A stretch of 22,746 nucleotides of DNA, taken from the IMG/VR virus record IMGVR_UViG_3300020424_000034, positions 1 to 22,746 of that record, one strand, 5' to 3'. Positions 109-12,454 of this stretch are shown here, one piece after another. The position numbers and the translations under genes are program-made. Position 1 is the stretch's first letter; each line of letters begins with the position of its first letter. The stretch comes from a virus. The notes under the pieces are model-generated. The model was not told the DNA's origin. It worked only from the letters and a program-made list of their open reading frames with translations, and made no database searches.

Positions 109-881
109 TGGCGATCCCCGGAAGTGGTTCAGTATCTTTAAGTTCAATACAAACCGAATGGGGTGGTAGTAATCCTGCAAGCTTAAATGAGTATTACTCT
201 GGAAGTTTAGCTAGTAATGCTTCTGCTATTACTACATCTACATCGGTAGGTTATTCAAGTACAAGTCAATATGTTCCTGCTCAACCCGGAGGTAAATATA
301 GTCCTAGTATTCCTGCATATACTGGTTATTATCGTCAGTTTGGACATAAACATGTAGCAATAGAGAATACAAGTATTTATCCTGGTATTGGAGCTTCAGG
401 TACAGTTTACACTTATACTTTTGTATCAGGCATAGATCAAGTAGGAAACGCAGGACAAATACCTTCTTCTGGCGCTATACAAATGAATCATTTTAGAGGA
501 ACTGCTAATAATCCTACGAATACAGCCCGTTATGTTTCTGGTTTTTGGTGGAGGCAAAGTACAAATTCTAATGGTACTTGGGGTAATCATTTAGTTTCAT
601 TTACTATAGCTGGAACATTTGGAACGCAGTACGCTAGTAATTGGAACACTTCATCGTGCCCTTTTCGCTACATTGATGTTCCTGCAAAAGATGGAGTTCC
701 TGCAACGAGACTTTATGGAAGTGATACTCATTCAAATAGTGGGTGGATAACCGCCAAAAGTATTCTTATTCATGCTACTTATCCTAGTCCTGTCGGAGCA
801 ACTACTACTTACACTTGGACCACAAATAATAATACAAATATTAATATGTCAGGTACTTGGAATATAACTGTACAAACGTAA
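108..881 (+). CDS. Putative tail fibre / receptor-contact protein
   Basis: 257 residues rich in Ser, Thr, Gly, Asn, Tyr and Trp, with almost no charged helices, as expected of a beta-rich fibre or appendage. The N-terminus (MAIPGSGSVSLSSIQTEWGG) matches that of the protein at 4802 (IPTSGNITLNQMHTEAGG): both follow IPxSGx(V/I)xLxx(I/M)xTExGG, so the two probably attach to the same virion part or share a trimerisation start. The rest, with repeated YTYTF, YTWTT and GTW-type segments, is unlike the 4802 protein. The start overlaps the previous stop (TAATG) and its own stop overlaps the next ATG in the same way. The fibre role is inferred from composition and neighbours; I do not recognise the C-terminal domain. 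Confidence 0.6.
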   Translation: MAIPGSGSVSLSSIQTEWGGSNPASLNEYYSGSLASNASAITTSTSVGYSSTSQYVPAQPGGKYSPSIPAYTGYYRQFGHKHVAIENTSIYPGIGASGTVYTYTFVSGIDQVGNAGQIPSSGAIQMNHFRGTANNPTNTARYVSGFWWRQSTNSNGTWGNHLVSFTIAGTFGTQYASNWNTSSCPFRYIDVPAKDGVPATRLYGSDTHSNSGWITAKSILIHATYPSPVGATTTYTWTTNNNTNINMSGTWNITVQT

Positions 882-1114
882 TGATTGAAAAAGCAGAAGA
901 TATTATTTATTACGAAGAACCTGCCGATGATGGAACTATGTGGTATCGTTGCGACTATAAAGGAGTTGCCATACGAAAACCAAAATCCATGTTTGATGGC
1001 TTGACAGAACTTGAAATTAAACAAGTATTTTTTGAATATATAAATACAGAAATAGACGAAACTGTTTATGATATAAGTAAAAATGCTGAAAGCAAAACAA
1101 GCGAGGGAATATAA
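881..1114 (+). CDS. Small acidic protein of unknown function
   Basis: 77 residues beginning MIEKAEDIIYYEEPADDG, acidic overall and without a membrane segment. An upstream in-frame TTG at 857 would add eight residues, but the ATG at 881 is preferred because it forms a TAATG junction with the preceding stop, and the next gene starts the same way at 1114. The central part (WYRCDYKGVAIRKPKSMFDG) looks like a short folded beta unit. It is probably translated by re-initiation with its neighbours. I do not recognise a family; an accessory or chaperone role for the adjacent fibre is only a guess. Confidence 0.65.
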   Translation: MIEKAEDIIYYEEPADDGTMWYRCDYKGVAIRKPKSMFDGLTELEIKQVFFEYINTEIDETVYDISKNAESKTSEGI

Positions 1115-1815
1115 TGACAGTTCGATATGATTTTGTTGTAGTGCCAGAAACTCTTAAAGTAGTTGATGATGAATTTCAAATAGTAGTAGTTGAAGGCAAT
1201 CAAGGAGATGTAGCTTCTAGAACAGAAAAATCAGAAATAATTGAAGTAACAAATCAAATTTTTGATACTGAAAGTTCAAACATACTTAAAACTCCAAGTA
1301 TATTATCTGTTATAGAAGGTGGTGTAGAAGTTTCTCTTAGTTGGGAAAATGATGATATTACTGAATTTGATTTACAAAGGTTAAATTTATTAACTCAATA
1401 TGATTATTTAAAAAATGGTTCCTTTGAACAAACAAGTTGGGAAGAAGCTATGGCTAATAAAAGTTATAAAGCTACTTATACTTTTGGTAATGATTACGAA
1501 ACTTTACAAGAAAAAGGTTTTTCTTGGGGATTGTATGCTAAATATGGAGAAGTAAAAGCAACTCAAGACAATACTAAATTAGTTTGTTTTCTATCTAAAG
1601 TAGAAGGATATTCTGGCAGTGTTTTAGATATAGGCGTTGGCGAAACTAAAACCATTAATAAATCCGATAATTTAATGTACTTATTTTTTTCACAGAATTG
1701 TTCTATTGGAGATACACAGATAAGTCAGTATGATATAAAAAAATTAAATAGTTCTTCAGTAGAGATCACAAATGAATCAGAAACTACTGCAAGAATTATG
1801 GCGTATAAGAGGTAA
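1114..1815 (+). CDS. Uncharacterised protein, possible virion accessory
   Basis: 233 residues, joined to the preceding gene by TAATG. The first 45 residues are rich in Val and Glu. The middle (SVIEGGVEVSLSWENDDITE, about residues 65-85) resembles an Ig/FnIII-type beta opening. The C-terminal half is beta-rich with alternating aromatic residues, has a GETKTINKSDNLMYLFFSQN stretch, and ends on a basic tail. There is no signal peptide or membrane segment. It lies between a fibre-like gene and the Coq4 homologue, and its stop region supplies the Shine-Dalgarno (AAGAGGTAAT) of the latter. No function can be assigned; a beta-sandwich tail accessory is the simplest guess. Confidence 0.6.
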   Translation: MTVRYDFVVVPETLKVVDDEFQIVVVEGNQGDVASRTEKSEIIEVTNQIFDTESSNILKTPSILSVIEGGVEVSLSWENDDITEFDLQRLNLLTQYDYLKNGSFEQTSWEEAMANKSYKATYTFGNDYETLQEKGFSWGLYAKYGEVKATQDNTKLVCFLSKVEGYSGSVLDIGVGETKTINKSDNLMYLFFSQNCSIGDTQISQYDIKKLNSSSVEITNESETTARIMAYKR

Positions 1816-1820
1816 TAAAT

Positions 1821-2657
1821 ATGGCATGGAATTTAAAGAAAATATATGAATACAGCAGAGATGTATTTGAGAATAATCATAATCTACAAAAACTCGAAGA
1901 TGATTTTGGTAATGCAAGATTAGATGCTTATCAAGGTTTAATTAGACAAATGGCTATTCCTTTTGGTTTGGGAGCATTACTTACACATCTTAAAAAAGAA
2001 AAAAGACCTATTTTATTTGGTGGAAGTTGGAATGATGAAACTTATGTAAGAGAAAAAGTATTACCAAAATTATCAGATAGAGAGTGGCTACAATCTTTGC
2101 CTCCGAATACTGTAGGAGCGCACTTAGGTAATTTACTAAAAAATTGGTCTATGGAAGAACTTTATGATAAAAGATTTCTTATTGGAGAAAACACTAAAGT
2201 TCTTGCAGGAAGGAAAGGAAATAAACTCTGGAGTAATTTATCAAGTCACATGTTTTTAACACACGATATATGGCATATTTTATTTAGATACGATACTACA
2301 CTTTTTGGAGAAGGATTAATTCAACAAATTACTTTTAGAGCTATAGGCGTAGTGCCTGTTGCTTATGTAGCTTTTATTGTGACTTGTAAAGTTGCTTGGC
2401 GCACTAAATCTCTTATGCCTTTTAAAGTTTTAAGAGAGGCAGATAAACTAGCAAAACGAGCAAATAAAAAATTATTATCAGCCAATAGTCCTTTATATTT
2501 TCTTGAACAAGATATTGATGAAGTAAGAAAGAAATTTGATATAGGAGTTCCTGTTGAATATATAAAGTGGACACAAAAATTCCCAAATCATTTTAGAGGA
2601 GATACCATACACCCAGAATATGAGGATAAACAATGGATAAAAGCAGAATCAATTTAA
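1821..2657 (+). CDS. Coq4-family ubiquinone-biosynthesis protein homologue
   Basis: 278 residues. Residues 148-164 read HDIWH-ILFRYDTTLFG-E, an exact HDxxH-x11-E motif (H148, D149, H152, E164), the metal-binding signature of COQ4. The flanks also follow the family order: LSDREWLQSLPPNTVGAHLG (85-103) matches the stretch before the motif, a hydrophobic helix follows it (about 174-193), and FLEQDIDEVRKKFDI (227-241) matches the conserved family end. In eukaryotes COQ4 organises the CoQ biosynthetic complex and is linked to oxidative removal of the C1 carboxyl of the quinone ring; bacterial homologues exist. About 37 residues extend past the usual end. The start follows a good Shine-Dalgarno (AGAGGT), and the last 25 nt overlap the next gene. 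Family assignment is confident; activity in the infected cell is inference. It has no obvious relation to the surrounding virion genes. Confidence 0.85.
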   Translation: MAWNLKKIYEYSRDVFENNHNLQKLEDDFGNARLDAYQGLIRQMAIPFGLGALLTHLKKEKRPILFGGSWNDETYVREKVLPKLSDREWLQSLPPNTVGAHLGNLLKNWSMEELYDKRFLIGENTKVLAGRKGNKLWSNLSSHMFLTHDIWHILFRYDTTLFGEGLIQQITFRAIGVVPVAYVAFIVTCKVAWRTKSLMPFKVLREADKLAKRANKKLLSANSPLYFLEQDIDEVRKKFDIGVPVEYIKWTQKFPNHFRGDTIHPEYEDKQWIKAESI

Positions 2658-2875
2658 GATGGAACTTTCCTATTGCTCAAGCAGCGATTAAGAAAATAAA
2701 ATCAGTATATAAAGAACAAGGTTTATTTGAAGCTATAGCGTATGTACTAGTTATAGTAATTGGATTTAAAGTTGTAGTTATTAATGGAATTATTTACACA
2801 ATAAATTACTTGTTTTTGACCGACATTAAATATGGACCTTTTCTTTATTATGTCCTTGGAATTAAGTTAATTTAA
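2633..2875 (+). CDS. Small membrane protein overlapping the Coq4 homologue
   Basis: 80 residues: a basic amphipathic N-terminus (about 1-30, including AQAAIKKIKSVYKEQG), then a long hydrophobic region (about 32-62, likely one or two membrane passes) and an aromatic, hydrophobic tail. The ATG at 2633 lies 25 nt inside the 3' end of the Coq4-like gene, with GAGG about 7 nt upstream, so the two are probably co-translated. The stop abuts the next ATG (2876). The family is not recognised. Because ubiquinone chemistry is membrane-bound, a membrane partner or anchor for the Coq4-like protein is an attractive but unproven idea; a small holin-like or unrelated inner-membrane protein is equally possible. 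Confidence 0.6.
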   Translation: MDKSRINLRWNFPIAQAAIKKIKSVYKEQGLFEAIAYVLVIVIGFKVVVINGIIYTINYLFLTDIKYGPFLYYVLGIKLI

Positions 2876-3580
2876 ATGTTTGGAATAAGTGCATTTGCAG
2901 AATCACCTTTCGCTTCCCTAGCTGGCCTCGGAGGTAATGTAAATGTATCTTTAATAGGGCAGTCTGCCACTGCTTCAGTAGGCACGACAACTTTTGTTTG
3001 TGTAGCTCACATAAATCCCACAGGCCAAGGAGCAACTTCTGCCATAGGCGGAGTAGGTATTACTGCTGGCGGAGATATAGGTGTTACTGGTTTTTCTATG
3101 ACATCTGGATTAGGTTCAATGACAATCACAGGGGAATCTAACTTAACAATAGATTTTTCAAGCCAAGGAGCTACTTCTGAATTGAGCGGTGTAGGAGTAA
3201 ATGCGCAAGCTGTAGCAACTTTACCTAGTTTAAATACAAGCGTTGGCTCAGTAGGGGTAACTGTAACTGGAGTGGCAAATGTTACTCCAGCTAGTCAATT
3301 AGCTACTTCTGCTCTAGGCACAATAACGCAAAGATCAAGTAATACTATTGTCATATCAGGATTTGGCTTAACTAGCGGTTTAGGAACTATAACGGAAATA
3401 GCTAAAGCAAATGTAACTCTAATTGGGTTTGAGGCAACAAGTGAATTGTCCTCAGTATTAGTATGGTCTATGCTAGAAGAATCTCAAGCTTCAGGATTTA
3501 ATGAAATAACAGATACTCAAACTCCAGGTTGGTCAGAAGTAAGTGATTCTGAAACAGCTTCGTGGGAAGATGTGGCTTAA
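2876..3580 (+). CDS. Repeat-built virion (tail-associated) protein
   Basis: 234 residues made largely of about eight degenerate repeats with a period near 22 residues. The recurring core is G-x-x-A-T-S-x-(L/I)-G, with its Thr at residues 32, 54, 76, 100, 121, 144, 166 and 188 (for example GQGATSAIGG, SQLATSALGT, GFGLTSGLGT). Each core is followed by an alternating Val/Ile strand, suggesting a beta-solenoid or beta-helical shaft. The C-terminus carries a second short repeat of period 11: FNEITDTQT, WSEVSDSET, WEDVA. The protein is acidic at the end and has no signal peptide or catalytic motif. It directly precedes the S74 tail fibre, so a tail appendage or head/tail decoration is likely. The structural role is inferred. 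Confidence 0.65.
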   Translation: MFGISAFAESPFASLAGLGGNVNVSLIGQSATASVGTTTFVCVAHINPTGQGATSAIGGVGITAGGDIGVTGFSMTSGLGSMTITGESNLTIDFSSQGATSELSGVGVNAQAVATLPSLNTSVGSVGVTVTGVANVTPASQLATSALGTITQRSSNTIVISGFGLTSGLGTITEIAKANVTLIGFEATSELSSVLVWSMLEESQASGFNEITDTQTPGWSEVSDSETASWEDVA

Positions 3581-3617
3581 TAATGATAATTTAATTATAA
3601 TTTAACGAGGTAAAAAC

Positions 3618-4805
3618 ATGGCAAGTACGTTTGATAATAATCTCAGACTTAGAGAAATGGGAACTGGTGATGAATCAGGGACCTGGGGAAATCGTACAAA
3701 CGAAAATTTAGAATTAATTGGAGAAGCTTTAGGTTATGGAACTGAAGCAATAACCACAAACGCCGACGTACACACTACAACAGTATCTAATGGAGCTACT
3801 GCTCCTGGTAGAGCAATGTATTTAAAATACACTGGCACATTGGATTCAGCTTGTACTATAACTCTAGCTCCAAATACAATTTCTAAATTATGGTTTATTG
3901 AAAATGCAACTGGCGGAGCACAAAACATAATTATTTCTCAAGGTAGTGGCGCTAATGTAACCATACCAAATGGTAAAACTAAATTAGTCTTTACAGATGG
4001 AGCAGGTTCTGGAGCTGCTGTTACTGATGGTTTGGATAAAATAGATCTAGGATCTAATTCAACATTGAATGGTGGTGGTTTTAGTGATGTTACTGCAAGT
4101 TCATCGACAACCTTTACTAATAAATCGATAGACTCTGATAACAATACTATTACTAATATTGTAAATGCAGATATAAAATCAACAGCTTTAATAGAATTTA
4201 GTAAGATGGAAAATCTTACCGCGTCTAGAGCCTTAGTATCTGATAGTAATGGAGATGTTTCTGTAAGTGCAGTAACTGATACAGAGGTTGGCTACCTTGA
4301 TGGAGTAACTTCCAACGTACAAACACAAATTAACGCTAAATTAAATCAATCCTTACCTACAAACACAACTTTGAGTTCTACTGATAGCAAAGAGAGATTT
4401 TATTTTGTTAATAATGCCGACACTTATTATGGCTCTGGGTCAGGTCATTATTTTAGATATAATGGTGCTACAAGACTATCTCTTGACTCTAGCGGAAATC
4501 TTACAGCAGTAGGCAATGTTGGTGCATATTCTGATATGGCACTCAAAGAAGATATATATGAAATAGAAAATGCTTTAGATAAAGTCAAAAAACTAAGAGG
4601 CGTACACTTTACTAAAAAAGCAGACAAGTCAAAAGAAATAGGAGTAGTAGCTAACGAAGTAGAAAAAGTTGTTCCTGAATTAGTAGATGAAGTAGAAGAT
4701 GAAAAACTAGGAACAATAAAAACTATGAAGTATGCAAATACCGTTGGGCTTCTTATAGAAGCAGTAAAAGATTTAAGCAAACAAATAGAAGAACTTAAAA
4801 AATGA
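3618..4805 (+). CDS. Tail fibre with C-terminal S74 self-cleaving chaperone
   Basis: 395 residues. The N-terminus (SGTWGNRTNENLELIGEAL, about 20-38) is the attachment region common to marine-phage tail fibres. A central segment (about 155-245) carries TNKSIDSDNNTITNI and a LASRALVSD/GYLDGVTSNVQTQINAK-like shaft. The C-terminal ~95 residues are a peptidase S74 intramolecular chaperone: SDMALKEDI places Ser305 and Lys310 five residues apart, as in the Ser-Lys dyad of endosialidase-type chaperones, followed by EIGVVANEVEKVVPELV and NTVGLLIEAVKDLSKQIEEL. This domain directs trimer assembly and then cuts itself off just before the Ser. The start has Shine-Dalgarno GAGGT. The stop overlaps the next ATG by four bases. 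Confidence 0.85.
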   Translation: MASTFDNNLRLREMGTGDESGTWGNRTNENLELIGEALGYGTEAITTNADVHTTTVSNGATAPGRAMYLKYTGTLDSACTITLAPNTISKLWFIENATGGAQNIIISQGSGANVTIPNGKTKLVFTDGAGSGAAVTDGLDKIDLGSNSTLNGGGFSDVTASSSTTFTNKSIDSDNNTITNIVNADIKSTALIEFSKMENLTASRALVSDSNGDVSVSAVTDTEVGYLDGVTSNVQTQINAKLNQSLPTNTTLSSTDSKERFYFVNNADTYYGSGSGHYFRYNGATRLSLDSSGNLTAVGNVGAYSDMALKEDIYEIENALDKVKKLRGVHFTKKADKSKEIGVVANEVEKVVPELVDEVEDEKLGTIKTMKYANTVGLLIEAVKDLSKQIEELKK

Positions 4806-5410
4806 GCGATATACCAACCAGTGGTAATATAACTTTAAATCAAATGCACACCGAAGCAGGCGGTACTAGTGGTACTGCTTGCACTTTAAATGACTCTGAT
4901 ATCAGAGGATTGATAGGTAAAAGTTCAGGTGTTTCAATGTTTTTTAATGAATGGTATGGCGCAGCTGCAGAATTTCAAATTACTTTTTCTCCTGGATTTT
5001 GGACTATTCAATTAGGTCCTGGAGGTAACCAAATAAGAGGTAGTGGAGTTGATGAGTTTAATGGCGTAAATTATGGAAGTTTTACATCTGCTACAAGTAA
5101 ATCTAGTTTTTTTAGTGGCAATGCTGTTCAACATCTTTGGAATAGACATCATAATAACGGAGGTGCTGGAATATTTTATTTACAAGTAGCTGGTGTTGTT
5201 TCAAATACTGATAATGATGCCTTCGCTACGATAAATGTTAATGGCACATCTTTAAACAGGAGTGCTGCAGGTTATGGTTTTTCTGGTAGTGGAGGTAGTT
5301 CATTAACCACATGGTCTTGGAGTTTTACGCAAGGAGGAGGAGCAACTAACAATATTTACCCTATCTATGGGCAGAGTTATCCCAGTAGTACGGTAACTTT
5401 TACAAAATGA
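4802..5410 (+). CDS. Putative second tail fibre / appendage protein
   Basis: 202 residues, glycine-, serine- and asparagine-rich. The N-terminal 55 residues (IPTSGNITLNQMHTEAGGTS through a Trp-containing helix near FFNEWYG) form a module shared, as a motif, with the protein at 108. The remainder looks beta-rich (FQITFSPGFWTIQLGPGG, then GSGGSSLTTWSWSFTQGGG) and ends in STVTFTK. It starts within the stop of the S74 fibre gene (ATGA overlap), so the two are coupled and may form a fibre plus tip or adhesin pair. No enzymatic motif is seen. A receptor-contact role is inferred from composition and placement. Confidence 0.65.
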   Translation: MSDIPTSGNITLNQMHTEAGGTSGTACTLNDSDIRGLIGKSSGVSMFFNEWYGAAAEFQITFSPGFWTIQLGPGGNQIRGSGVDEFNGVNYGSFTSATSKSSFFSGNAVQHLWNRHHNNGGAGIFYLQVAGVVSNTDNDAFATINVNGTSLNRSAAGYGFSGSGGSSLTTWSWSFTQGGGATNNIYPIYGQSYPSSTVTFTK

Positions 5411-5417
5411 GGTAATT

Positions 5418-5552
5418 ATGGATACATTTATATGGATCATAGTTGGTTTATTAGTCGCTAAAGTAGTTTTAAAAGCTACAATGCCATATTTAAATAAATC
5501 AATTGATGAAAAAGCTAAAAAATATTGGGAAAATTTAAAAAGTTATTTTTAA
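5418..5552 (+). CDS. 44-residue single-pass membrane protein
   Basis: A short open frame from ATG 5418 to TAA 5550-5552. The start is well supported: TGAGGT, overlapping the upstream stop, is a strong Shine-Dalgarno at good spacing. The product has one membrane helix near residues 4-22 (FIWIIVGLLVAKVVLKA), then a charged Lys/Glu tail ending WENLKSYF. It is the first of three consecutive small membrane proteins upstream of the 634-residue structural protein. A lysis-associated or inner-membrane virion function is possible; no family is recognised. Confidence 0.6.
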   Translation: MDTFIWIIVGLLVAKVVLKATMPYLNKSIDEKAKKYWENLKSYF

Positions 5553-5564
5553 TACTAGATTGCA

Positions 5565-5915
5565 GTGGATGATCTAGTAAAAATAATTAATGAAGTAGGA
5601 TTCCCAATAGCAGCAACTTTAGGTTTAGGATTTTTTCTTTGGAAACTTTTAAATAAAATTATTAACGGCATGGAACAAAAAATAGATGTAGTTGATGACA
5701 AGATAAATGAAAGCATGGCAGCTATGGAAAAAAGACTAGATTCTAAATTAGACTCACAAATGGGCATATTAGTTCAATTAATAGATAGAGTTAGATCTGT
5801 AGATAATGAGATAATAAGGCAAGATGTTTTGTTAAAAACTTTATTAAATGCGCCAGAGCTCATAGAGCCTGATAAGTTATCTAAATCTGAAAGAGATGAC
5901 AAACGTAAAGATTGA
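5565..5915 (+). CDS. Small membrane-anchored coiled-coil protein, holin-like
   Basis: 116 residues with a GTG start at 5565. An in-frame TAG at 5556-5558 leaves only a few codons upstream, and no ATG occurs until well inside the gene. One membrane helix lies at about 11-30 (VGFPIAATLGLGFFLWKLL), followed by a long charged heptad region (about 35-95) and a basic, acidic-mixed tail. This single-pass plus coiled-coil shape resembles small phage holin-like or XhlA/BhlA-type proteins. It sits between two other small membrane proteins. No strong Shine-Dalgarno is visible, so translation may depend on the upstream gene. Function is inferred from topology only. Confidence 0.6.
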   Translation: MDDLVKIINEVGFPIAATLGLGFFLWKLLNKIINGMEQKIDVVDDKINESMAAMEKRLDSKLDSQMGILVQLIDRVRSVDNEIIRQDVLLKTLLNAPELIEPDKLSKSERDDKRKD

Positions 5916-5943
5916 TATAAAATGTAACGAAATATAAAAAAAC

Positions 5944-6153
5944 ATGGCAAGAACTACAGTAACAGAATTAGATAAAAGACTTAGCTCGCATGAAGCCGCA
6001 TGTGAACAAAGATGGAAAGAAAACTACAGACGTTTAGATGCTATCGAACAAGGTATTATTTCAATAAATAAAAGCATAAGAAACAGTTTAATTTTTACAA
6101 TTACTGTATTTTTAAGCGTTACAGCTTTCTTCATACAACAAACTCTTTTTTAA
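5944..6153 (+). CDS. XhlA-like small membrane protein (lysis-associated)
   Basis: 69 residues: a soluble, heptad-bearing N-terminus (TVTELDKRLSSHEAACEQRW through about residue 45) and a single C-terminal membrane helix (about 47-66, SLIFTITVFLSVTAFFI). This order, coil then C-terminal helix in about 70 residues, is that of XhlA-type hemolysin/holin-associated proteins, which work with a holin and endolysin in host lysis. The true holin and endolysin of this phage lie 2-3 kb downstream (8406-9270). No clear Shine-Dalgarno precedes the ATG (the upstream region is A-rich). Family assignment is tentative. Confidence 0.55.
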   Translation: MARTTVTELDKRLSSHEAACEQRWKENYRRLDAIEQGIISINKSIRNSLIFTITVFLSVTAFFIQQTLF

Positions 6154-6170
6154 CAAGGTAGGTATTTGTT

Positions 6171-8075
6171 ATGCCTTACACTAAGATTTTATTTAAACCA
6201 GGTATAGATAAAGAAGGAACTAGCCTTACTGCAGAGAACGGTTGGTTTGATGGTAATCTTGTTAGATTTAGAAGGGGCCTACCAGAAAAAGTAGGAGGTT
6301 GGGCAAAAAATAGTACAAGCATATTAGAAGGAACTCCCAGAGCTTTGCATGACTGGGTTAATTTAGACGGAACAGATTTATTAGGTGTGGGGACCACTTA
6401 TAAATATTATATTCAACAAGGTTCTGATTTTAGTGATGTTACTCCAATAAGAGAAACTACATCTGCAGGTGATGCAACATTTGCTAAAGTTGCCAACAGT
6501 GATGCTACCATTACAGTTACTGAAAACGGACATGGAGCTTCAATAAATGATTACGTTACTTTTAGTGGAGCTGCAGCCTTAGATGGAGGAAGTGGAAGCG
6601 GAAATATTACTGCATCTGTATTAAATCAAGAATATCAAATTACTAGTATTGTTGATGCCAACAGTTATACCATAGAAGCAAAAGACACTAACGGTAATAC
6701 CGTTTTAGCAAACGCTAGTGATTCTGGTAATGGTGGCGGTAGCACGGTGGCCGCATATCAACTTAATGTGGGTTTAGATACTTATGTATCCTCTACTGGT
6801 TGGGGTGCTGGCGGTTGGAGTTCTGGAAGTTTTGGTTCAGTAACTCCGTTATCAGCAAACAATACTTTAAGATTATGGACTCACGATAATTTTGGAGAAG
6901 ATTTAATTATTAATCCTAGAGCAGGTTCTATATTTAGATGGGACAACTCAAATGGTTTAACAACTAGAGCAGTAGAATTACAAACAATCGCTGGAGCTAA
7001 TTTAGTTCCTACTCGTTGTTTACAAGTTTTAACTTCAGACGTTGATAGACATTTAATTGTTTTAGGCTCCGATTCTTTAAACGCTAATGGTACAGCTAGG
7101 ACAGGAACAATAGATCCTTTATTAATATCTTTTTCTGATCAAGAAAATTTATTAGAGTTTGAAGCAAAAGCTACTAATACAGCAGGTTCTATAAGAATAT
7201 CTTCTGGTTCTCTGATTGTTGGTGGTTTAAAAGCTAGACAAGAAATATTGATTTGGACAGATGTATCTATGCACTCAATGCAATTTATTGGAGCGCCTTT
7301 TACATTTGGTTTAAATTTAATAAATGACAACGTTGGTTTAATTGGACCCAAAGCTGTAGTCAATGGCGATAATGGTATTTACTGGATGTCATCTGATGGA
7401 TTCTATTTTTACAATGGTTCTGTATCAAAACTACCATGTTCTGTTTTAAGTCATGTTTTTGATGATTTAAATTTAGATGAAGTTTATAAAAACTTTGCTT
7501 TTACCAATAGAGAATTTAATGAAGTCGGTTGGTTTTATTGTTCTGCTTCATCTACCGAACCAGATAAATATGTAGTTTACAATTACATAGAACAGGTTTG
7601 GAGCATTGGTGAATTAGAAAGATACTCTTGGATAGATAAAGGAATATTTTCTTTTCCTTTAGCCACTGGTAAATCTGGCAACTCTTATTATTTATATAAT
7701 CACGAAAGTGGTAATGATAATGATGGTTCACCAATGGACAATGTATTTATAGAGTCTGGAGACTTTGACATAGAAGACGGCGATAAATTTTATTCGGTTA
7801 GAGAAATAATACCTGACATAAAATTTACTGGTTCTAATGGTAACGCAGCTTTAAACGTAGTTTTAAAAACTAGAGATTTCCCTAACGATTCGCCAACAGA
7901 AAAAGTTAGCTCATCAATTACCAATACAACAAAAAAAATAGATACTAGAGCAAGAGCCAGACAAGCTATATATAGAGTAGAGTCTGATGATGACAATGAC
8001 GTATCAGCAAGAAATGGTTTAGAGTTTAGATTAGGAGCAACCAGATTTAATTTTAGAGAAGACGGAAAAAGATAG
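6171..8075 (+). CDS. Large phage structural (tail/neck) protein
   Basis: 634 residues, the largest tail-region protein before the ejection genes. The N-terminus (FKPGIDKEGT... NGWFDGNLVRFRRGLPEKVG) is a recurring opening in structural proteins of marine podoviruses. The body alternates beta strands with WT, GW and SSG turns. Around residues 100-200 there is a Gly/Asn/Ser-rich beta insert (for example SGAAALDGGSGSGNITAS), and residues 330-500 contain aromatic blade-like segments (YWMSSDGFYFYNG, VGWFYCSASSTE). It has a good start, with AAGGTAGG upstream. The stop overlaps the next GTG (TAGTG). The likely role is a tail tube, nozzle or stabilisation protein; which one cannot be decided by eye. 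Confidence 0.6.
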   Translation: MPYTKILFKPGIDKEGTSLTAENGWFDGNLVRFRRGLPEKVGGWAKNSTSILEGTPRALHDWVNLDGTDLLGVGTTYKYYIQQGSDFSDVTPIRETTSAGDATFAKVANSDATITVTENGHGASINDYVTFSGAAALDGGSGSGNITASVLNQEYQITSIVDANSYTIEAKDTNGNTVLANASDSGNGGGSTVAAYQLNVGLDTYVSSTGWGAGGWSSGSFGSVTPLSANNTLRLWTHDNFGEDLIINPRAGSIFRWDNSNGLTTRAVELQTIAGANLVPTRCLQVLTSDVDRHLIVLGSDSLNANGTARTGTIDPLLISFSDQENLLEFEAKATNTAGSIRISSGSLIVGGLKARQEILIWTDVSMHSMQFIGAPFTFGLNLINDNVGLIGPKAVVNGDNGIYWMSSDGFYFYNGSVSKLPCSVLSHVFDDLNLDEVYKNFAFTNREFNEVGWFYCSASSTEPDKYVVYNYIEQVWSIGELERYSWIDKGIFSFPLATGKSGNSYYLYNHESGNDNDGSPMDNVFIESGDFDIEDGDKFYSVREIIPDIKFTGSNGNAALNVVLKTRDFPNDSPTEKVSSSITNTTKKIDTRARARQAIYRVESDDDNDVSARNGLEFRLGATRFNFREDGKR

Positions 8076-8404
8076 TGGCAAAATTATTAGAAACTAGATT
8101 GCCTATAGCTGGCAGAGAAATAACGCCAGATGTTTTTAATAGATTGGTTAGAGTATTAGAACTAAACCTACAAAAGTTTGACCCTAATGCAACACTACAA
8201 ATAAATACAGAAGAAAAATTAAATACTAAATTTAATCCCGGTGATATTGTTTTTGATACTAGTAAGAATACTTTAGAGTTTTTTAATGGAGAAGAGTTTG
8301 AAGTTTTATCATCACAACCAACTGGTTCTTTTGAAGCTACAGCTTCTTTAGGTGAAGTTTCTGTTAGTGAAGAAGGATCAATATCAATAAACGTGAGCAT
8401 ATAG
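8075..8404 (+). CDS. Small structural-region protein of unknown function
   Basis: 109 residues from a GTG start that shares a base with the preceding TAG (TAGTG); the GTG, not a later ATG, is chosen because no in-frame ATG exists near the beginning. The N-terminus is helical (ITPDVFNRLVRVLELNLQKF), and the middle (FNPGDIVFDTSKNTLEFFNG) is a beta segment. The C-terminal Ser/Glu/Val stretch looks flexible. There is no membrane segment. It is tightly coupled to the 634-residue protein and immediately precedes the endolysin, so it is probably a partner or minor component of the tail. The family is not firmly recognised. Confidence 0.6.
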   Translation: MAKLLETRLPIAGREITPDVFNRLVRVLELNLQKFDPNATLQINTEEKLNTKFNPGDIVFDTSKNTLEFFNGEEFEVLSSQPTGSFEATASLGEVSVSEEGSISINVSI

Positions 8405-8405
8405 T

Positions 8406-8882
8406 ATGAACGATTGGAACAGTGAAACTAAATTAAGTCAAAATTTTAAATTAAAAGAGTTTGAAAAAAGTTTTGTAGCAAAGAGAAAAAATATAGATAA
8501 TTGTGTTCATGATAAAGAAACATTTAAAAGTCTGGAAAAATTATGTAAAAACATCGTTCAACCGATTAGGAACTACTACAAAATACCTTTTAGCCCTAAT
8601 AGCGGTTATCGCAGTATTACTCTCAACAGATATATTGGCTCTTCTGATACTAGTCAGCATGTATTAGGCCAAGCGGTAGATTTAGAAATACCTGGAGTAA
8701 ACAACGAAGAATTATTTAATTTTATAAAAGACGAATTAGATTTTGATCAAGTAATTTTAGAATATTATGATGGAGTAGATCCAAGTAGTGGTTGGGTTCA
8801 TGTTTCTTATGTATCTAATAAAGATAATAGAAACAGAGCCATGACTTTCGATGGTGACCATTATAGAATAGTAGAGGAGTAA
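8406..8882 (+). CDS. Endolysin, peptidase M15 family (D,L-peptidase)
   Basis: 158 residues forming a compact M15 zinc peptidase. The zinc-binding set is visible: SQHVLGQAVDLE gives His85 and Asp92 (HxxxxxxD), and WVHVSY gives the third ligand, His132. SPNSGYRS (63-70) is the conserved loop before the first ligand. These enzymes cut D-Ala-D-Ala or L-Ala-D-Glu type bonds in peptidoglycan stem peptides and act as phage endolysins, here presumably reaching the wall through the holin encoded next. There is no signal peptide or separate wall-binding domain, which fits a globular endolysin of a Gram-negative host. The start lies one base past the previous stop. The family call is confident; exact bond specificity is not. 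Confidence 0.88.
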   Translation: MNDWNSETKLSQNFKLKEFEKSFVAKRKNIDNCVHDKETFKSLEKLCKNIVQPIRNYYKIPFSPNSGYRSITLNRYIGSSDTSQHVLGQAVDLEIPGVNNEELFNFIKDELDFDQVILEYYDGVDPSSGWVHVSYVSNKDNRNRAMTFDGDHYRIVEE

Positions 8883-8886
8883 TATA

Positions 8887-9270
8887 ATGATTGAATCGTT
8901 AATAAAGCCAGTTAGTGATATTGTTGGTAAATTTGTAAAAGATAAAGATTTACAAGCTAAATTAGATCATGAGTTAGCTACTTTATTTCATCAAGCAAAT
9001 TTAGCTCAGATAGAAGTAAATAAAATAGAAGCAAAAGGCTCTCCGTTTCAACGAAATTGGAGGCCCTCTGTCGGGTGGATCTGCAGTTTTGCACTTGGTT
9101 ATCACTTTGTACTTGCACCCATAATTGAGGTTATAATAAAGACTTCTGGCGTACAGATAGAAATGCCAGAATTTGATTTTTCGCAGTTATCTGCGATTCT
9201 CATGGCACTCCTAGGAATGTCGGGACTTAGATCATACGATAAATTAAAAAGAACTGATACAAAAGGATGA
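8887..9270 (+). CDS. Holin of the GTA three-helix type
   Basis: 127 residues. An amphipathic N-terminal half (VSDIVGKFVKDKDLQAKLDH) leads to FQRNWRPSVGW (54-64), then membrane helices at about 62-84 and 98-113, ending GMSGLRSYDK. The F-x-R-x-WRP opening and the GMxGLRxY(D/E)K close are hallmarks of the holin family described from gene transfer agents and many alphaproteobacterial phages. It would form the inner-membrane hole that releases the M15 endolysin encoded four bases upstream. A Shine-Dalgarno (GAGGAG) lies at the end of the endolysin gene. Its own stop overlaps the next start (ATGA). Confidence 0.85.
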   Translation: MIESLIKPVSDIVGKFVKDKDLQAKLDHELATLFHQANLAQIEVNKIEAKGSPFQRNWRPSVGWICSFALGYHFVLAPIIEVIIKTSGVQIEMPEFDFSQLSAILMALLGMSGLRSYDKLKRTDTKG

Positions 9271-10811
9271 AAGATATAAAAGAAAATCAAGAAGGTTTAA
9301 AAGCTTTAGCTGACGAAAGACCAGATGTAGTAAAAAAAATGGGTTACGACCCAGAAAGTTTTTACGGCGGAGGATTAGCGATGTTAGCTAACGGCGGTTC
9401 AGTCGATCCAGACTCAGCGATAGATTTATTTAAAATGAAATCAGAAAACGATCTTCGAGATTTTATTGGTAAAAATGCAATATCTAAAATATTAGGAGAT
9501 GTGCTTAGAGGTAGAGATGTTAAAGATGCTCTAGAAGAAGGAGGCATAAATCAAATATTAAAAGAAAGCAACATACCGTTGAGAAAAGATGGTAAAGAAA
9601 TAATTTTTGATGTTAACCCTGAATTTTCTTTTTATAGAAATCCTATGGAAACAGGTATTAGATTTGAAAGAAAATTTAATGAAGGCGGCATTGCAAAACT
9701 TTTTGGTGGAGGTATGCCATTTCCTACATTTAAGAGTATTAAAAATATGTTTGGTTTCGGAGATGATAAAGATGAAGATAAAGAAAGAAAAATTAATGAA
9801 GTAACAGTAACTCCAGATTATGAAATAAGTGAAGCAGAAAAAGAAAAATTTTCAGAGTTAGTAGGAAAACCTTATGACAAAGATCTTTCGGAACAATATG
9901 ACAAATTAGCTGGCGACATTACTGAATATAATTTTGAATACGATAAACAAGGTAATTTAACAAATGACCCTTTTAAAAAACCACTCACCAAAGGACAAAA
10001 AGCATTGGCTGCTTTAGAAGGCTTGGGAGCTCTAGCAGATATACAAATGCCAGAAGCTGTAATGGTAAGTGGAGGAGGTATAGGTGAAGCGATAATGCCT
10101 ACTATGCCAAATGTTTTTAGAGTTGGCGGTATGGCAGACGGTGGAATAATGGAGATGGCAAATGGCGGAACAATGTATGCTGACGAAAATTTAAGAAAAT
10201 TAGAACAATTAATTGATGCTTCGCCATTAAAGAGTAAGGATAAGGCAATTCAAAAACAAATTGCTAGAATGCAAATGGCACAACAGTTTATGCCTGGAAC
10301 AACTCAATACATACCTACTGACGCTCCCTACAAAGCTGTCTATAGACCTTATTTTTCTGAAATAACTAAAGAATATGCAGCTGCTAGACCAGGCAAACCT
10401 TTTAGTGCTGCTGTAGCTCCTCCTATTGAAAAAGTTAATTTTAATTTGGGAATGAGACCTGAAGGAGGTTTTAACCCGCCAAGAAGAGTATCTGGCGTAG
10501 AATATGCAGCAGATGGAATGTTAATTGATGGTAAGTTTTTTCCAGAAACAGATGAATTAGTTTCTGGTCCAGGCTCTGAAACTAGTGACGAAATACCAGC
10601 TATGTTAAGCGATGGTGAATTTGTTGTTAATGCTAAAACTGTAAGAGGGTTAGGTTTACAAATGGGAGCAAACCCAGCAGATTTAGAAGAACAAACAGAT
10701 ATAGGCGCAATGGTTCTTGAGTATTTACAAGATACTCTAGGTCCAGATGGAGAGGCTGCTGATAAATTAGTTAAAAGCGGTTTGGGATCTTTAATAGGAG
10801 TTATGTCTTAA
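9267..10811 (+). CDS. Virion protein with GGI/NGG motifs
   Basis: 514 residues. Glycine motifs recur: GGGLAMLANGGS (34-45), EGGINQIL (91-98), NEGGIAKLFGGG (138-149) and VGGMADGGIMEMANGGTM (286-303). The C-terminal block SDEIPAMLSDGEFVVNAKTV (439-458) is a strongly conserved signature of a structural protein in many marine and environmental phages. The spacers are highly charged and probably disordered (about 165-240). It starts inside the holin stop (ATGA), with AAAAGG upstream. Its position between the lysis genes and ejection genes suggests a neck- or ejection-associated protein. I recognise the family pattern but not a proven function. Confidence 0.7.
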   Translation: MKDIKENQEGLKALADERPDVVKKMGYDPESFYGGGLAMLANGGSVDPDSAIDLFKMKSENDLRDFIGKNAISKILGDVLRGRDVKDALEEGGINQILKESNIPLRKDGKEIIFDVNPEFSFYRNPMETGIRFERKFNEGGIAKLFGGGMPFPTFKSIKNMFGFGDDKDEDKERKINEVTVTPDYEISEAEKEKFSELVGKPYDKDLSEQYDKLAGDITEYNFEYDKQGNLTNDPFKKPLTKGQKALAALEGLGALADIQMPEAVMVSGGGIGEAIMPTMPNVFRVGGMADGGIMEMANGGTMYADENLRKLEQLIDASPLKSKDKAIQKQIARMQMAQQFMPGTTQYIPTDAPYKAVYRPYFSEITKEYAAARPGKPFSAAVAPPIEKVNFNLGMRPEGGFNPPRRVSGVEYAADGMLIDGKFFPETDELVSGPGSETSDEIPAMLSDGEFVVNAKTVRGLGLQMGANPADLEEQTDIGAMVLEYLQDTLGPDGEAADKLVKSGLGSLIGVMS

Positions 10812-10812
10812 C

Positions 10813-11298
10813 ATGAGTAAATTTACTTTAGATAAACTTTCATTTAACGAAAAAGACGGTAAAGAAATAGCAGACTTTTTGGTTAATCATTTTCATGCAG
10901 ATCACTCTTTAGATGGTGGTGAATCTCCTAGAGTGCATTGGGGCAAAACTTCTTGGCAGATAAACAATGTTTTATTAAAAGGTGTTGTTTATGTGGTAAG
11001 AAGTAATCAAGAAATAATTGGTAGTTTAGGATTAGAAGAATGTTCTCATTGGTGGTCAGACGATGTTTTTTTAGGAGACAGTTGGTTTTTTGTTAGGCCA
11101 GAATATAGAAATGTAAAGGATGATTTAAAACCATCTAATATGTTATTAGAAGCTGGGATGAAACTTGCTGAAGAAAAAAATATACCAATCATAATGGGTA
11201 TATATAATATTGGTAGCATTGATAAAGCAGAAAAATTATTATTAAACAAAGGATTTCACCAAATTGGTGGGACTTATTACAACAATTTAAATAGGTAG
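10813..11298 (+). CDS. GNAT-fold acetyltransferase-like protein
   Basis: 161 residues with a GNAT layout: beta strands VVYVVRSNQEIIGSLGLEE (about 57-76), a strand and loop DSWFFVRPEYRN (93-104) ahead of the acetyl-CoA region, a helix SNMLLEAGMKLAEEKNIP, and the terminal KAEKLLLNKGFHQIGGTYY strand-helix-strand. The usual Q/RxxGxG/A pyrophosphate loop is weak or absent (RNVKDDLKPS stands in its place), so enzymatic activity is doubtful. In T7-type phages a GNAT-fold protein lies next to the internal virion proteins, just as here, so it may be a virion component rather than an enzyme. It lies one base after the preceding stop. Confidence 0.68.
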   Translation: MSKFTLDKLSFNEKDGKEIADFLVNHFHADHSLDGGESPRVHWGKTSWQINNVLLKGVVYVVRSNQEIIGSLGLEECSHWWSDDVFLGDSWFFVRPEYRNVKDDLKPSNMLLEAGMKLAEEKNIPIIMGIYNIGSIDKAEKLLLNKGFHQIGGTYYNNLNR

Positions 11299-11302
11299 TA
11301 TT

Positions 11303-12454
11303 ATGGGATGCACATGTAAAAGTAAACCAATTATGGGACCAAAAGCTGAATCAGTTGAGCTGCCTACCACTGGTTATTCTTTTGTATCTCCTTACATAGA
11401 AGATTACAGCAGAAGATTATTGGGCGCTTACTTCGGTTCTCCTGGAGAATACGAAGGCTTAATATCTCAAGAAAGACCTATTCCTATTGAAGGCACTGCA
11501 CAGCTAACTGAATTAGAAAGACAAGCAGCAGAACAAGCGGGACAACTAGGACAATTTGCAAGTTTTACTCCAGAGGGTATAGATTACTATAGACAAGCAG
11601 GAGATCTTGCAAGAGATCCAGTTGCAGCTGCCAGAGCTAGATTTAATCCTTTTGAAGATGACGTGGTACAACAATCAATAGATGATATTACCAAAGCCTA
11701 TCAACAAAAAGATATCGGTATTAGAGACGCTGCTGTTACTTCTGGAGCCTTTGGTGGTTCTAGAGGCAGAATAGCTCAAGCAGAAAATCAGGCGGCTTTG
11801 GGTAGAGGATTGTTGGAAGCAGTAAGTGGTATTAGAAGACAAGGTTTTCAAGATGCTCAAGCTCAAGTTGGTCAAAATATTGCACAGTTACAAAATGTTG
11901 GTAGCGGTATATCCACACTTGGAGCTGCTGGGCAAGCACAAGCAATTAACAGAATAGGAGCTATGGCCGGTCAAGGAGCTATCGACAGAAGTGTTCAACA
12001 ATCAGAATTATCTAGAAGATTTAGAGCGGCTGATGTCTTAGCTGATGAACCTTTTGCTAGATTGCAAAGAGGACAACAACTCTTAGCTGGAATGCCTGCT
12101 GGAGGTATTTCTGGGGGCACAGGCGCCCAAATATATCAACCTCAAATGGCAATGCAACCTTCACCATTATCTCAAATAGCTGGTGCTGCAGGAGCTGTAG
12201 GAACTGCTGCTGCTGGGATTGGCGCAGCTGTAAATTCAGACATAGAATTAAAAGAAAACATTAGAAGAGTAGGAGACTATGACGATAATCTAGGCTGGTA
12301 TGAATGGGATTGGAATGACAAAGCCAAAGAAATAGGAGTCGAATCAGAACCTACTGCTGGATTCTTAGCTCAAGAAGTTCTCGAAGTAGAGCCAGAGGCA
12401 GTAAGTATTAAAAATGGTTACTATGCAGTTGATTACGCGAGGCTTATGAGATGA
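11303..12454 (+). CDS. Putative ejection protein with C-terminal S74-like domain
   Basis: 383 residues. The N-terminus (MGCTCKSKPIMGPKAE) has two Cys. Residues about 70-260 are Ala/Gln/Arg-rich helices (AARARFNPFEDDVVQQSIDD, AQAEN, RLQRGQQLLAG), typical of internal virion proteins delivered with DNA. A Gly/Ala hydrophobic stretch near 285-310 (IAGAAGAVGTAAAGIGAAV) leads to an S74-like end: SDIELKENI gives Ser312 and Lys317 five apart, then GFLAQEVLEVEPEAVS. The frame stops right after VDYARLMR, so the long C-terminal helix present in the tail-fibre copy is missing. The stop overlaps the next ATG. The ejection role is inferred from composition and order. Confidence 0.65.
   Translation: MGCTCKSKPIMGPKAESVELPTTGYSFVSPYIEDYSRRLLGAYFGSPGEYEGLISQERPIPIEGTAQLTELERQAAEQAGQLGQFASFTPEGIDYYRQAGDLARDPVAAARARFNPFEDDVVQQSIDDITKAYQQKDIGIRDAAVTSGAFGGSRGRIAQAENQAALGRGLLEAVSGIRRQGFQDAQAQVGQNIAQLQNVGSGISTLGAAGQAQAINRIGAMAGQGAIDRSVQQSELSRRFRAADVLADEPFARLQRGQQLLAGMPAGGISGGTGAQIYQPQMAMQPSPLSQIAGAAGAVGTAAAGIGAAVNSDIELKENIRRVGDYDDNLGWYEWDWNDKAKEIGVESEPTAGFLAQEVLEVEPEAVSIKNGYYAVDYARLMR

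Follow-up and report, generated by a model that had tools for sequence, protein, structure and literature searches.

The phage gene at positions 1821..2657 (plus strand) of the window, the whole 22,746-nucleotide stretch of viral DNA analysed here, encodes a protein of 278 amino acids that almost certainly belongs to the Coq4 family, as judged from Pfam, phmmer, predicted fold and profile–profile comparison. The gene, hereafter coq4, is carried by a marine phage and flanked by phage genes. It is the central gene of a phage cassette of almost constant make-up, in which it is followed by a small membrane-protein gene (c1), with or without a further gene upstream (c3), and which recurs over several phage groups. 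The product is most likely a quinone-ring decarboxylase that depends on a metal and associates with the membrane, so that coq4 would serve as an auxiliary metabolic gene; we hold this reading at slightly better than even odds (roughly 0.5). This suggests that the virus tops up or steers a respiratory electron carrier of its host during replication.

Family membership and the metal motif

The coq4 reading frame is complete, with 278 codons and an ATG start preceded by a purine-rich AAGAGG. The first-pass annotation had called the product a Coq4 homologue and had set a search with the Coq4 family profile (PF05019) as a possible refutation. That search gave a significant match (28.6 bits, E 1.1e-6, cut-off 22.9), although with the single protein as query it spans no more than residues 147–242. 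All 23 aligned proteins of the clade to which the gene belongs (phage A, see below) match PF05019, with a best E of 3.3e-13, and no other Pfam family was matched. Profile–profile alignment (hhalign) of phage A with 17 bacterial Coq4 proteins yields a probability of 99.8% and an E of 2.8e-29 over 222 columns. A phmmer search of PDB sequences returned two weak matches, both solved bacterial Coq4 proteins (6e12 and 3msq), while searches of NCBIfam and PHROGs with coq4 returned none. The AlphaFold2 model (pLDDT 84, pTM 0.85) was built from an alignment that contained bacterial Coq4 and is therefore not independent of homology. Its alpha-helical fold resembles these same two structures, as the annotation had anticipated of a true homologue: Foldseek against the PDB assigns 6e12 and 3msq a probability of 1.00, with the next match at 0.07 and the remainder at about 0.1 or below, and they superpose on the model with a TM-score of 0.68 by target length at 5–6 Å rmsd. 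The viral structures of BFVD gave no significant match to the model. The homologue call is thus borne out by the PF05019 cut-off, the profile–profile match and confident PDB matches that are Coq4 proteins alone.

Coq4 proteins carry an HDxxH-x11-E metal motif, and all four of its residues are present in the translation, at codons spanning 2262..2312 (plus strand): His148 (2262–2264), Asp149 (2265–2267), His152 (2274–2276) and Glu164 (2310–2312), with exactly 11 residues between His152 and Glu164, as had been claimed. The two family-like flanks also stand as quoted, LPPNTVGAHLG at residues 93–103 and DIDEVRKKFDI at residues 231–241. In the model, His148, Asp149 and His152 lie on a helix formed by residues 130–155 and Glu164 on a helix formed by residues 161–175, with pLDDT values of about 90–95 in this region. 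The four ligands are invariant across 43 aligned phage and bacterial sequences, and number among the 17 invariant columns of the 23-member phage-A alignment. The motif with its spacing is kept in 41 of the 41 phage reading frames read, a count obtained with a search pattern that itself used the motif region. A fair test of conservation is provided by searches seeded with the genes beside coq4, which made no use of the motif: they brought in additional coq4 genes, several of greater divergence, and in all 13 of those read the four ligands are retained, although W151 and further positions of the motif differ. Among bacterial Coq4 proteins, some members from Sphingomonas and Cupriavidus have an x12 spacing instead. 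Ratios of dN to dS for coq4 are well below 1 (e.g. 0.10/1.73 and 0.14/0.83), placing the gene under purifying selection. The reading frame and its motif are real and not a product of chance.

Viral relatives and separate acquisitions of Coq4

A search of IMG/VR, the collection of viral records from which the window comes, recovered 58 coq4 loci. Phage A comprises the window and loci whose proteins are 38–96% identical over essentially their full length, and occurs across several phage backgrounds; most of the remaining loci form a distant set, phage B, at about 25–34% identity. No relative was detected by tblastn among the 50,697 deposited phage records of INPHARED, using coq4 of the window, L028 and L041 as queries, and c1 and c3 likewise had no relative among deposited phages. 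The annotation's remark that no phage Coq4 had been characterised therefore agrees with INPHARED, the BFVD structures and the open-access literature, in which no prior report of a phage Coq4 was found.

In the tree, phage A forms a single clade (support 100/100) with a stem length of 2.48 changes per site, whereas phage B, together with L042, is nested among bacterial Coq4 (support 100/99); L042, a 360-kb viral contig, is left out of the argument. L067 groups with the Coq4 of a marine bacterium at lower support (92/84). The separate placements of phage A and phage B indicate that Coq4 entered phages at least twice, with phage B acquiring it independently of phage A, and L067 appears to represent a further, unrelated acquisition. 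No close cellular relative of the window Coq4 was found in a pattern-limited scan of one genome per species across 84,980 species, and the bacterial matches kept from it are only 20–31% identical over the matched part, with 22–31% for those ranked closest by E-value; recent capture of the phage-A gene from a host was rejected on this ground. Phage A thus appears to be old or fast-evolving, no donor having been recognised in that scan.

Phage Coq4 has a predicted fold in common with its cellular counterparts, which include human and yeast COQ4, the cyanobacterial Alr8543 (6e12), a Nostoc punctiforme protein (3msq) and alphaproteobacterial members. It further resembles them in the motif and its spacing, in length, in the family-like flanks and in a hydrophobic helix after the motif. 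Phage A nevertheless differs from cellular Coq4 in its low identity and separate, long-stemmed clade, in mostly carrying LFRY rather than LTGY beyond the motif, in an extra conserved C-terminal tail (R-x-D-T-[FI]-H-P) in most members, and in its linkage to the phage-specific genes c1 and c3. R118, N139 and H143 are also invariant within the clade.

These features bear on the substrate. Some alphaproteobacterial genomes (G058, G251) hold as many as six matches to the Coq4 family, suggestive of roles other than ubiquinone synthesis, and a Coq4 relative is present in Synechococcus elongatus, included as a control. Cyanobacteria make plastoquinone and are not known to make ubiquinone; together with the multiple matches per genome, the cyanobacterial members imply that proteins of the family need not all act on ubiquinone. 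It is accordingly possible, as a tentative alternative, that phage Coq4 is a genuine enzyme of the Coq4 fold that now acts on some membrane lipid other than ubiquinone itself, such as a host-specific lipid or a different acid, prenylated or aromatic. The long divergence of phage A, its clade-specific residues and tail, the paralogues within single bacterial genomes, the Synechococcus relative and the association with partners that have no known ubiquinone-pathway role are all consistent with such a shift. Against it, all metal ligands and the Coq4 predicted fold are retained, and the Fe-S and redox genes that adjoin coq4 in T4-like phages suit a role in respiration.

The coq4–c1 cassette and its genomic contexts

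The gene c1 (2633..2875, plus strand) shares 25 nt with the 3' end of coq4 in the window and encodes an 80-aa protein whose hydropathy profile contains one strong hydrophobic segment, marking it as a one-TM membrane protein and a candidate partner or anchor for Coq4. It lies directly downstream of coq4 in 20 of the 21 testable phage-A loci, a count that includes a copy in L025 recognised by eye; L029 alone lacks it. Upstream of coq4 in the tail-module contexts is c3 (1114..1815, plus strand), encoding a beta-rich, cupin-like protein of 233 aa. When IMG/VR was searched with c1, coq4 stood directly upstream in 27 of 31 loci, the other four starting at a contig edge; with c3, coq4 stood directly downstream in 26 of 27 loci, the last ending at the end of its contig. 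Many of these contigs are near-copies, so that independent cases are fewer than the counts, but phage-A members as distant as about 30% identity are represented. The 85-aa frame c8 (857..1114, plus strand), upstream of c3, is confined to the closest relatives (six loci) and falls outside the core cassette. Neither c1 nor c3 has a match in Pfam, NCBIfam, PHROGs or PADLOC. The AlphaFold2 model of c3 (pLDDT 77) matches almost exclusively cupins in Foldseek, at weak TM-scores of about 0.3–0.45, and is probably not a metal cupin enzyme, since its invariant columns contain no histidine. The near-constant pairing of coq4 with c1 suggests that a Coq4-type enzyme has a membrane partner hitherto overlooked.

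Three genomic contexts were distinguished. In the first, represented by the window and by those loci of L010–L023 and L029 whose flanks are long enough, coq4 and c3 lie amid tail-fibre and S74-chaperone genes; the annotation had placed the gene in a tail-gene setting, and in the window it does lie among genes of both kinds. The window contig encodes a tail fibre, endolysin, holin, DNA ejection protein, helicase and exonuclease. The nearest relatives of its virion proteins, at 25–41% identity, come from the pelagiphages HTVC027P and HTVC023P, a gammaproteobacterial phage, cyanophages and roseophages, which is suggestive of a marine proteobacterium as host.

The second context (L024–L028 and L030) lacks c3, and several of its loci carry T4 RNase H-like genes. 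Genes for a peroxiredoxin and a phosphoribosyltransferase precede coq4. Five of the six loci have c1 after it, then genes for an IscU-like scaffold and an A-type Fe-S carrier; in those five a glutaredoxin gene comes next, assigned by cluster in four and by position in one. The third context is that of phage B, in which c1 and c3 are absent and coq4 lies between the terminase (gp17-like) and tail-sheath (gp18-like) genes in the loci examined. In L067, an IscU gene is found about 4 kb from coq4.

The first-pass annotation also put forward the idea that the Coq4 fold has been reused in the virion, which in this tail setting would make it a tail or appendage protein. The position of coq4 amid fibre and chaperone genes across the first context and the beta-rich nature of its constant neighbour c3 fit this idea. 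It is, however, disfavoured and a virion role is very improbable, because T4-like phages carry the same coq4–c1 pair away from any tail module, beside redox and Fe-S genes. That c1 is a membrane protein, that the metal ligands are invariant, and that the phage-B gene sits between terminase and tail sheath, showing its location not to be fixed, also count against it. A role in defence or anti-defence was likewise dropped, there being no PADLOC match.

Several features of the surrounding DNA are recorded in their own right. In the window, two fibre-like proteins (108–881 and 4802–5410) have a similar short segment at the N-terminus, as if tail-fibre genes had been shuffled around the coq4 cassette. 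The DNA-ejection-type protein at 11303–12454 (phrog_4287) also matches tail-fibre PHROGs over residues ~292–382, which recalls the S74 chaperone end of fibres and is unusual in an ejection protein. L010, the closest relative phage, encodes the curli-secretion proteins CsgF and CsgG (7707–8994; Pfam E 1e-14 and 4e-44) a few kilobases downstream of the cassette, and these gene clusters recur in L012. In the T4-like L028, positions 3350–11164 hold a block of viral signalling and redox genes, running from a CHASE2-adenylate cyclase through a HAD hydrolase, peroxiredoxin, phosphoribosyltransferase, coq4, c1, IscU, A-type carrier and glutaredoxin to a glycosyltransferase. The phage-B insertion falls within the structural cluster of T4-like phages in L045 (5960–10999), and likewise in L031, L036, L039, L058 and L065.

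Proposed role in host quinone synthesis

Animal COQ4 is a Zn-dependent C1 decarboxylase, and its same-motif mutants H142A-H146A and D143A-E158A lose activity (PMC7615680); the human protein has been described as an oxidative decarboxylase (PMC11495197). On the computed foundation of family membership, conserved ligands, a Coq4-like predicted fold, purifying selection and a fixed gene cassette, we infer the following scheme, in which the bound metal, the reaction and its substrate, the partnership at the membrane and the gain for the phage are all conjectural. Phage Coq4 would sit on the host inner membrane, working like cellular Coq4, and would bind a divalent metal through His148, Asp149, His152 and Glu164. 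There it would remove, perhaps oxidatively, the C1 carboxyl of a prenylated quinone precursor of the 4-hydroxybenzoate type, keeping quinone synthesis, and hence respiration and ATP supply, running during infection. The membrane protein c1 may hold or feed Coq4 at the membrane, and c3 may act as an accessory in those phages that carry the cassette in the tail region. A quinone-ring membrane enzyme is the most economical reading because the motif and predicted fold are intact, a candidate membrane partner is encoded beside it and the neighbours in T4-like phages are Fe-S and redox genes. It is also favoured by the repeated uptake of Coq4 by phages, by the IscU gene that again lies near coq4 in the unrelated L067 acquisition, and by the earlier record of ubiG in aquatic viromes (PMC9301287; PMC8066274). 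The earlier suggestion that host quinone synthesis is sustained or redirected by the phage is plausible in this light, and the Fe-S/redox neighbours and the membrane protein c1 lend it support. A fuller version is more doubtful: a quinone-ring enzyme complex evolved by tailed phages, in which Coq4, as a metal-dependent (oxidative) decarboxylase, has a dedicated one-TM partner and a cupin-like accessory, is coupled to viral Fe-S cluster assembly in T4-like phages, and serves a virus that rebuilds respiratory capacity during infection.

The distance of phage A from cellular Coq4 and the occurrence of the family in cyanobacteria and in several copies per genome weigh against the quinone reading. 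Among the window and relative genes scanned, no other quinone gene was identified beside coq4. Coq4 occurs in 27 of 289 alphaproteobacterial genomes and UbiD in 123, with both in eight and neither in about half, so that finding Coq4 in a genome does not amount to finding ubiquinone synthesis. Complementarity of UbiD and Coq4 in Alphaproteobacteria, considered as a clue to need, was not decisive for the same reason.

Phage proteins can act by mimicry, and phage Coq4 might accordingly join or compete with the host quinone-synthesis complex and slow or redirect it, with the small membrane protein c1 doing the targeting. Such a host-takeover role seems improbable. It would accord with the membership of animal COQ4 in a multi-enzyme complex (PMC7615680), but a pure decoy need not retain four metal ligands, which are nonetheless invariant here, and with Coq4 in so few alphaproteobacterial genomes many possible hosts offer none to mimic.

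As a proposed quinone-ring decarboxylase, phage Coq4 invites comparison with two known systems. UbiG is a methyltransferase, and methyltransferases form a large class prone to misannotation. The gene ubiG has been listed as a viral auxiliary metabolic gene in Baltic Sea and Lake Baikal viromes, and is alike in being a virus-borne ubiquinone-pathway gene with a proposed effect on electron transport (PMC9301287; PMC8066274); Coq4 differs in representing another step (C1), in its conserved catalytic residues and in the partner genes that regularly accompany it. UbiD/UbiX, which decarboxylates at C1 in bacterial ubiquinone synthesis, would act at the same pathway step as phage Coq4 if the proposal is right, but consists of unrelated proteins and uses prenylated FMN (PMC7615680). 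No UbiD was recognised among the window genes scanned.

What is added here is the near-constant coq4–c1 cassette, with or without c3, and its T4-like version embedded in Fe-S and redox genes. In animal coenzyme Q synthesis, the C1 step was the one that had escaped identification until 2024 (PMC7615680); viral homologues as divergent as these may aid the structural study of the enzyme responsible. More broadly, a conserved and repeatedly acquired quinone-synthesis enzyme, if true, would extend the support that phages give to their hosts. Phages prop up photosynthesis and carbon metabolism; with Coq4, that support would reach the central machinery by which marine heterotrophs respire.
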